Source: Aquabacterium sp. OR-4 (GTDB taxonomy: Bacteria > Pseudomonadota > Gammaproteobacteria > Burkholderiales > Burkholderiaceae_C). Taken from it: a stretch of 64,000 nt of DNA. Shown here piece by piece: positions 1,471 through 1,769 of this stretch. Each line of letters opens with the position of its first letter. Position 1 is the first letter of the stretch. A model generated the notes under the pieces. That model was not told the origin of the DNA. It ran no database searches and saw only the letters and a program-made list of their open reading frames with translations. The position numbers were made by a program, and so were the translations under genes. The stretch lies in assembly GCF_025290835.2 (NCBI RefSeq), contig NZ_JAOCQD020000001.1, positions 2,418,001 to 2,482,000 on the forward strand. The letters run 5' to 3'.

Positions 1471-1576
1471 GGTCCGCGGCCGCCGGGTGACCGGATTGCT
1501 CCGTGTCCCCCGGGCGCCGCTGCGCGACGCCCTCCTCCTTTACCTGCGCAATCCGGTCACCCGGCGTCCGCGGCCC
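1471..1576. repeat. Long hairpin repeat, copy A (50-nt part-conserved loop)
   Basis: Arms at 1471-1498 and 1549-1576 pair over about 28 positions with two mismatches; the inner 18 pairs (1481-1498 with 1549-1566) are perfect. The loop 1499-1548 is 50 nt. Read on the minus strand, which is the leu transcript sense, it begins CGCAGGTAAAGGAGGAGG and ends CGGGGGACACGGAG. Its central 18 nt can form a small inner stem (GGGCG with CGCCC). Copy B at 1631-1730 has the same loop ends in the opposite orientation but unrelated arms. Function unknown; it may be a structured RNA, a transcription-modulating hairpin or a mobile palindromic repeat. Confidence 0.9.
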
Positions 1577-1630
1577 TGGCACCGTTGCCCACTGCGCCGA
1601 GGTTCTTGGCATGCGGCGGTCGTTCCTTAG

Positions 1631-1730
1631 CGCCGGGGTGGGGTGGCGCGCTTTACGCAGGTAAAGGAGGAGGCCGGAGCGAAGCGCAGGCCGGGGGACA
1701 CGGAGTAAAGCGCGTCACCCCAGCCCGGCG
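1631..1730. repeat. Long hairpin repeat, copy B (same loop ends, different stem)
   Basis: Arms 1631-1655 and 1706-1730 pair over 25 positions with one mismatch and one G-T pair. The loop 1656-1705 is 50 nt and on the plus strand begins CGCAGGTAAAGGAGGAGG and ends CGGGGGACACGGAG, identical to copy A read on the minus strand. The middle 18 nt differ from copy A, yet its inner GGCC/GGCC ends can also pair. The two copies are therefore inverted relative to each other, 54 bases apart, both between leuD and leuB. The loop carries AAGGAGG, a perfect Shine-Dalgarno-like string, with no gene behind it. Confidence 0.9.
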
Positions 1731-1769
1731 CGATCGCTCAGACTGCAGCAAACCATCGGCCCAAACCTA

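Follow-up and report, generated by a model that had tools for sequence, protein, structure and literature searches.

A dispersed family of hairpins with free stem sequence in Burkholderiales and Rhodocyclales, probably mobile and working as folded DNA

Two facing hairpins between leuD and leuB

What kind of element are the two hairpins that lie between leuD and leuB in Aquabacterium sp. OR-4, and in which nucleic acid is their fold preserved? The flanking genes (leuD with its stop near 1767, leuB with its start near 1351) are both on the minus strand of the window, the whole stretch of 64,000 nucleotides that was analysed. Two inverted hairpins had been claimed here in an earlier note made from the sequence, and both repeat search and DNA folding confirmed them, with cores that are inverted copies of each other (Table 1). 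Copies A and B stand head to head, their 5' ends facing each other 53 nt apart, with A on the minus strand. By repeat search, the arms of copy A are 29 nt long (1471-1499/1548-1576) and those of copy B 27 nt (1630-1656/1705-1731), both pairs being 93% complementary. The arms are 48 nt apart in both copies, and both have the same two-sided internal loop (5' GCAGGTAAAGGAGGAG, 3' GGGGGACACGGA).

Table 1. Features of the hairpin pair between leuD and leuB (positions in the window)
Feature	Position	Strand	Basis or remark
Hairpin copy A, whole model match	1472..1575	-	covariance model R1, 81.4 bits, E 2.1e-18
Copy A 5' arm, 28 nt	1548..1575	-	pairs with 1472-1499
Copy A 3' arm	1472..1499	-	repeat search and DNA folding
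Copy A 5' core strand, GCAG-GTAAAGGAGGAG	1532..1547	-	identical to copy B and the family core
Copy A 3' core strand, GGGGGACACGGA	1500..1511	-	core comparison
Copy A inner hairpin, GCA loop closed by C-G	1512..1531	-	DNA folding
Spacer separating the two 5' ends, 53 nt	1576..1628		without promoter-like match
Hairpin copy B, whole model match	1629..1732	+	covariance model R1, 83.1 bits, E 6.9e-19
Copy B 5' arm, 28 nt	1629..1656	+	pairs with 1705-1732
Copy B 3' arm	1705..1732	+	repeat search and DNA folding
Copy B 5' core strand, GCAG-GTAAAGGAGGAG	1657..1672	+	core comparison
Copy B inner hairpin, tip GC(GAA)GC	1672..1692	+	DNA folding
Copy B 3' core strand, GGGGGACACGGA	1693..1704	+	core comparison
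Right outer segment	1733..1766		by eye like the terminal inverted repeat seen in complete units from a genome of the same genus

Folded as single-stranded DNA, copy B reaches -41.2 kcal/mol (z -8.45) and copy A -47.4 kcal/mol (z -8.57), and none of 200 shuffles was as good for either. The complementary strands are less stable as DNA (-32.7 kcal/mol for B, -41.8 for A). RNA parameters give the same shape for both copies, with z-scores of -8.0 and -8.7. The middle segment, which had been claimed to differ between the copies and still to pair with itself, indeed folds into an inner hairpin in both, with the predicted tip GC(GAA)GC in copy B and GC(GCA)GC in copy A. The core strand of copy B is antisense to leuB and leuD. 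For the promoter types covered by the search, no promoter-like match was found in 1300-1900 of the window, and no terminator-like match was found within 1472-1732.

The same spacer was compared in 20 relatives, of which three were unreadable. In all 17 readable same-genus genomes it is a short gap or holds a small reading frame, and it lacks the core; the hairpin pair was therefore most likely inserted at leuD-leuB. The inserted spacer also contains, just upstream of leuB, a tandem GGCTT array of about nine units (1409-1456), possibly a slippage site.

A dispersed family with free stems and a constant core

The element consists of a stem of 25-28 bp, a purine-rich internal loop (GnAGGTAAAGGAGGAG / GGGGGACACGGA) and an inner hairpin of free sequence. 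The exact core is present four times in the window's own genome; of 21 genomes of the genus, this one among them, 4 have it, at 12 places in all. A scan of one genome per species returned 105 stretches with the core, and the record titles of the matches are mostly from Burkholderiales (Rhodoferax, Hydrogenophaga, Roseateles, Pelomonas, Limnohabitans, Polaromonas, Ramlibacter and others) and Rhodocyclales. Altogether 110 distinct hairpin places were compiled. With a covariance model, 15 matches were found in the own genome, of which 14 had E-values no higher than 5.3e-6, and 61 of 120 sampled genomes of the host's family had matches (per-genome counts here are lower bounds, the highest being at least 34). 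Among 276 genomes drawn across the class, matches were present in four: the own genome, a second member of its family and two genomes that both belong to one further family. These searches uncovered a dispersed family, and both its existence and the covariation of its stems are near certain.

By a simple home-made gene finder, 107 of the 110 places are intergenic. The mapping relative to genes also showed that the core may lie sense or antisense to its neighbours, or between convergent or divergent genes; all four contexts occur. A search of Rfam with 1200-2000 of the window at E up to 1 gave six matches to microRNA families, all under their gathering scores. Two stretches with the exact core pattern were found in viral contigs and none in the phage collection, and a search of the plasmid collection with one hairpin as query returned two weak Variovorax records. 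A phage or plasmid origin was rejected since these collections hold almost no copies.

Several further observations concern individual copies. The element was found in records labelled Akkermansia (L070) and Pseudoxanthomonas (L113); the flanks of L070 resemble by eye a pccB-pccA-type locus of Comamonadaceae records, so a mis-binned contig is likely. One copy of the own genome (L140, C2:555774) carries an extra hairpin-rich insert inside the 3' core. At three other own-genome loci (L133, L135, L136) a second structured repeat of about 200 nt (GCCAAGCCGTG..GCGTGAATCTGCGC..) was seen by eye upstream of the 5' arm of solo hairpins. Placement near the origin was considered and set aside: over 28 loci of three near-complete genomes, with the other five genomes with mapped positions left out, the mean distance was 0.33 of the half-chromosome (KS p 0.001), and nearness to dnaA was carried by G138 and G087 and absent in G127.

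In an alignment of 40 diverse copies the covariation score was 0.882 against 0.207 in shuffles (0 of 500 reached it), and at most 0.159 when the partner strand was slid. This alignment left out L016, L085, L111, L118, L065, L103, L125, L123 and L082, together with rows with short flanks, inner segments longer than 19 nt and arms more than 72% alike. Paired cells made up 91.8% compared with 55.7% in shuffles and at most 43.5% with the partner slid, and 431 cells were changed on both sides where shuffles predict 138.8. Such two-sided changes were found at all 28 outer pairs and 2 of 4 inner pairs; the number of pairs with them barely exceeds the shuffles (30 vs 27.3, reached by 17 of 500). No column of the arms is invariant in the 40 copies, and all invariant columns are in the core. 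The outer stem pairs without gaps and its pairing drops after 25 bp: Watson-Crick pairs are present in 93 of 106 copies at the 25th pair and in 55 of 106 at the 26th.

These results strongly support the claim that structure is kept while stem sequence is free. Across the family the arms are neither conserved, as they would be in an ordinary palindromic repeat, nor unpaired. The further suggestion that arms are acquired or replaced in each copy did not hold: closely examined genomes have one or a few lineage-specific arm types, which drift with compensation. Copies A and B do differ in arm type. The arms are not arbitrary, since those of copy A resemble by eye those of most other copies of the own genome, copy B representing another type. 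In three copies (L016, L085, L111) the arms are unpaired, and L118 is also poorly paired near the core. The three represent either recombination at the core or assembly chimeras.

In nearly all of 198 copies the two sides of the core itself are GG-A/G/C-GGAG and GG-G/A-GGACA, a constancy that is partly due to selection of the copies because the search pattern tolerated 3 and 1 mismatches. Between genera the core is unchanged while the arms diverge. Its pattern of guanines would make a two-layer G-quadruplex conceivable.

The strand on which the fold is kept

Wobble pairs were counted at 106 of the 110 places, the remaining 4 being too short. On the core strand, with copies chosen by core letters alone, G.T pairs outnumber A.C pairs by 174 to 17 in 103 hairpins, and by 179 to 23 when the three unpaired chimeras are kept. 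Without the chimeras, the G.T:A.C counts are 78:10 where the core is antisense to tandem genes (n=43), 47:2 where it is sense (n=26) and 25:3 between convergent genes (n=17). Matches of the covariance model, of which 163 were parsed and 160 counted, gave 109:9 in antisense, 97:4 in sense, 41:1 in convergent and 8:3 in divergent contexts (divergent n=6). Because the copies share ancestry, the events counted are not independent of each other. The bias argues strongly that pairing is kept on the core strand regardless of the direction of host transcription. The share of A.C is 10 of 88 in antisense and 2 of 49 in sense copies (Fisher p 0.21; 14 of 96 in antisense copies with chimeras). This difference is not significant, and its direction, the one expected of a weak mRNA effect, is the only such hint.

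The earlier note had placed the function of the hairpins in the leuD-leuB transcript, with a Shine-Dalgarno-like sequence exposed in the loop. This proposal was not upheld, because core-strand pairing is kept whichever way the copy is transcribed and copy B is itself antisense. A Shine-Dalgarno role in general was likewise rejected: by eye no ATG, GTG or TTG follows within the shared core, and in 45 of 106 copies the core is antisense to the genes on both sides.

One copy lies within a gene. At L214 (4180-4286) the linker of cobyrinate a,c-diamide synthase (cobB) contains the hairpin in frame, and the reading frame is open with the hairpin in either orientation. The insert is present in 100 of 120 cobB homologues, the best 120 of 8000 scored, which were ranked by similarity to an insert-bearing query and are therefore not a fair sample. 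Among these 100 proteins the core is sense in 39 (..QVKEEPA..GDTEQ..) and antisense in 61 (..PCPPPALRAPPLPAQN..). In three relatives that lack the insert the linker is short, the same anchors being 78 nt apart. On a single tree, from which the linker and 9 of the 120 proteins were left out, at least 14 orientation changes were required among 92 inserted proteins with labels set by patterns, against 23-33 in 20 label shuffles. A first tree pass with cruder labels gave 11 orientation changes and 15 presence changes.

Wobble pairs inside cobB were counted in 19 of 30 loci (two lacked an anchor and nine the hairpin). The core-strand G.T:A.C counts are 17:4 with the core sense (n=10) and 24:3 with the core antisense (n=9), the mRNA of the latter hence carrying the A.C forms. 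In this one gene, with its one direction of transcription, the fold is thus preserved on whichever strand carries the core, be it that of the mRNA or the opposite one. It is mainly because of this bias that DNA is preferred over mRNA; a separate antisense transcript would also fit.

Just over half of the copies (131 of 242) carry C(GNA)G as the tip of their inner hairpin. GNA triloops occur in RNA too, so their frequency counts as supporting evidence only. The 131 distinct inner segments include 50 with a GNA loop and 12 with a GNRA loop; the complementary TNC is absent. On G-C stems, GNA and GNNA loops are reported to form DNA mini-hairpins of extraordinary stability, and GCGAAGC melts at 78 C (PMC4686876).

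Arrangement, movement and candidate explanations

Neighbours within 400 nt were counted among 165 of the 169 model matches from a search of 100 loci, four partial ones being left out. Of 63 neighbour pairs 60 are head to head, mostly 37-64 nt apart, and 42 hairpins, some of them near the ends of their loci, have no neighbour within this distance. The partner arms of the head-to-head pairs are unlike: none of the 60 exceeds 70% likeness (mean 0.47, maximum 0.68). Arms from different units over all genomes have the same mean likeness of 0.47, so an avoidance of like arms beyond chance was rejected at this level, and the contrast exists only within the same genome. There, the best arm match between units averages 0.80-0.95, compared with 0.29-0.58 within a unit (five genomes, 22 units; only four units were recognised in G003 and in G087, and some arms are offset by a few bases). 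Arm likeness is high (0.93 and 0.89) for two neighbours in the same direction. Two arm types meet in either order in G003, G119 and one Rhodocyclaceae MAG.

At longer range there is a counterexample to unlike arms: in L046 (5636-6784) two nearly identical hairpins stand head to head about 950 nt apart, enclosing a stretch that by eye resembles a tRNA and a reading frame of 179 aa. In L213 (389-2051) hairpins 1.6 kb apart, also head to head, enclose reading frames that by eye look helix-turn-helix-like and methyltransferase-like. An autonomous copy with a gene between its hairpins was sought in these two loci by inspecting the reading frames by eye, and no transposase was recognised.

The spacers of the 60 head-to-head pairs average 60% G+C and are by eye not conserved between genera. 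In 8 of 12 aligned loci of G003 the units have, by eye, inverted ends (GGGCTCt..TGCGGAC...GTCCGCA..GAGCCC). The outer ends vary between genera by eye, and terminal inverted repeats were not seen as a general feature. No clear direct repeat that could be a target-site duplication was visible by eye in the G003 loci. A link to Y1 transposases was not found either: Y1 is absent from 6 of 16 multi-copy genomes, and 17 Y1 loci (56 kb) contain no model match. Nor did the analysis reveal another enzyme or a binding protein for the family.

The family resembles the REP/BIME/REPIN repeats in being composed of short, chromosomal, mostly intergenic hairpins, with head-to-head dimers and several copies per genome. 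A Y1 transposase (TnpA-REP, RAYT) is believed to mobilise REP sequences in single-stranded form. Their dimers are described as predominantly head to head, heterodimers being preferred in most families without an obvious explanation (PMC3733652). According to one published rule, a REP has GTAG or GTGG 0-2 nt 5' of its basal stem, a basal stem of 7-20 nt and either a loop of 2-5 nt or a second stem across a bulge of 1-3 nt (PMC6006769). In the present family the bases 5' of the outer stem are unconserved and GnAG is within the loop, 3' of the 5' arm; the stem is 25-28 bp and the internal loop at least 12 nt on each side. REPs also come with a repeat-flanked Y1 transposase, whereas these hairpins have no linked Y1 gene. 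In these three features, foot, stem and loop, and Y1, the family departs from REP.

The arms of integron attC sites are variable in sequence, and their conserved R'/R'' boxes sit at the stem ends. Here the conserved part is the internal loop, and the arms of the 40 copies have no invariant column. attC sites are recognised as a folded single DNA strand, the bottom strand being preferred (PMC6393395). Rickettsia palindromic elements (RPEs) are hairpins of 105-146 bp found between genes and in frame inside conserved proteins (PMC2229807), a likeness shared by the cobB insert; they belong to another bacterial class, and the comparison is one of description, not of sequence. Caulobacter CIRs are intergenic too, with two inverted-repeat arms joined by a linker, and differ in having a conserved sequence with GANTC at the terminal loop, in belonging to alphaproteobacteria and, in that account, in not being found intragenically (PMC2229807). 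The same source lists NEMIS/Correia, ERIC and other bacterial MITEs as small non-autonomous elements with long stem-loops, most of them with conserved termini, TA ends and target duplications (PMC2229807). Intrastrand-triplex motifs (PMC4666352) were also considered and rejected, no matching term being found in that text. In the open-licence literature, mostly at the level of titles and abstracts, no account was found of sequence-free covarying stems or of in-place flipping. By analogy the element would be filed with the small palindromic mobile repeats, as one with an unusual selection signature. To our knowledge no RPE has been reported to have sequence-free stems or to flip in place, and we know of no sequence-free covarying stem among NEMIS/Correia, ERIC or other bacterial MITEs.

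Two explanations place the fold in RNA. A structured RNA made from the core strand (an sRNA or a protein-binding RNA, independent of the host gene, with the repeats as dispersed RNA genes or sponges) predicts the same covariation and the same wobble bias, the folding under RNA parameters suits it, and the purine loop with AAGGAGG and repeated GGA triplets would be in keeping with such a role. Against it are the absence of a promoter-like match around the pair in the window for the promoter types searched, the G+C-rich spacers unconserved between genera, the equal bias of antisense copies inside cobB, the small number of GNRA loops and the lack of an Rfam family above threshold. We consider it unlikely, and a DNA fold is the likely choice between the two. 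Less probable still is a hairpin of the host mRNA (a terminator, mRNA stabiliser or RNase III site that read-through transcription would place under selection, an idea put forward for ERIC or NEMIS). The intergenic positions, the long stable stems and the slightly higher A.C share of antisense copies agree with this; the wobble bias persists where a copy is antisense to both flanking genes, and also in cobB when the core is antisense, and no terminator-like match was found at the window's pair.

Two further explanations remain. A passive palindrome, free of selection, in which template-switch correction between the arms maintains complementarity and the core is conserved because the copies are recent, would account for the repeated core flips in cobB, which arm-mediated template switching could cause, and for the three copies with unpaired arms. 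Symmetric correction would not yield a roughly tenfold excess of G.T over A.C on one strand, and the core is constant across genera whose arms have diverged. The strand bias therefore disfavours this explanation, unless correction is itself strand-specific, and it is as improbable as the mRNA hairpin. An ordinary DDE-type MITE, with terminal inverted repeats of about 35 bp moved by a putative transposase and hairpins that are incidental, is suggested by the inverted ends common to units of G003. It is the least probable of all: by eye the outer ends change from genus to genus but the hairpin core does not, cobB contains a hairpin on its own, and the covariation is left unexplained.

We conclude that these hairpins of Burkholderiales and Rhodocyclales probably belong to a non-autonomous mobile element that would work through its hairpin, in single-stranded or cruciform-extruded DNA. 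Copies are solo or paired head to head, units insert between genes, and cobB has a hairpin in frame. The stem might then be a mere scaffold of measured length, displaying the purine internal loop capped by the inner hairpin, and a putative protein may recognise this loop when the strand is folded, in the course of replication, transfer or repair. Head-to-head pairing would provide one readable hairpin per DNA strand, and unlike partner arms would keep the pair from collapsing into one long palindrome. The complete proposal, which is tentative and to which we give somewhat less than an even chance, is of a family of chromosomal single-stranded DNA signals: stem sequence is free and its pairing is under strong purifying selection on one strand; a putative protein reads the purine loop, possibly a two-layer G-quadruplex (GGnGG-AG-[hairpin]-GGnGG), on a measured 25-bp stem; head-to-head pairs with unlike arms offer one readable hairpin per strand; and the hairpin can invert in place, even in a coding gene that is open both ways.

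Covariation usually counts as proof of a structured RNA; in this family it seems to be the signature of DNA that is folded and read as a single strand. If this is true, it offers a way of finding single-stranded DNA fold signals from sequence alone. It would point to a protein reading single-stranded DNA in a large group of environmental bacteria, and would be relevant to the question of why palindromic repeats in pairs tend to form heterodimers. The cobB gene would provide a natural example of an insert in coding sequence that flips again and again and leaves the reading frame intact.
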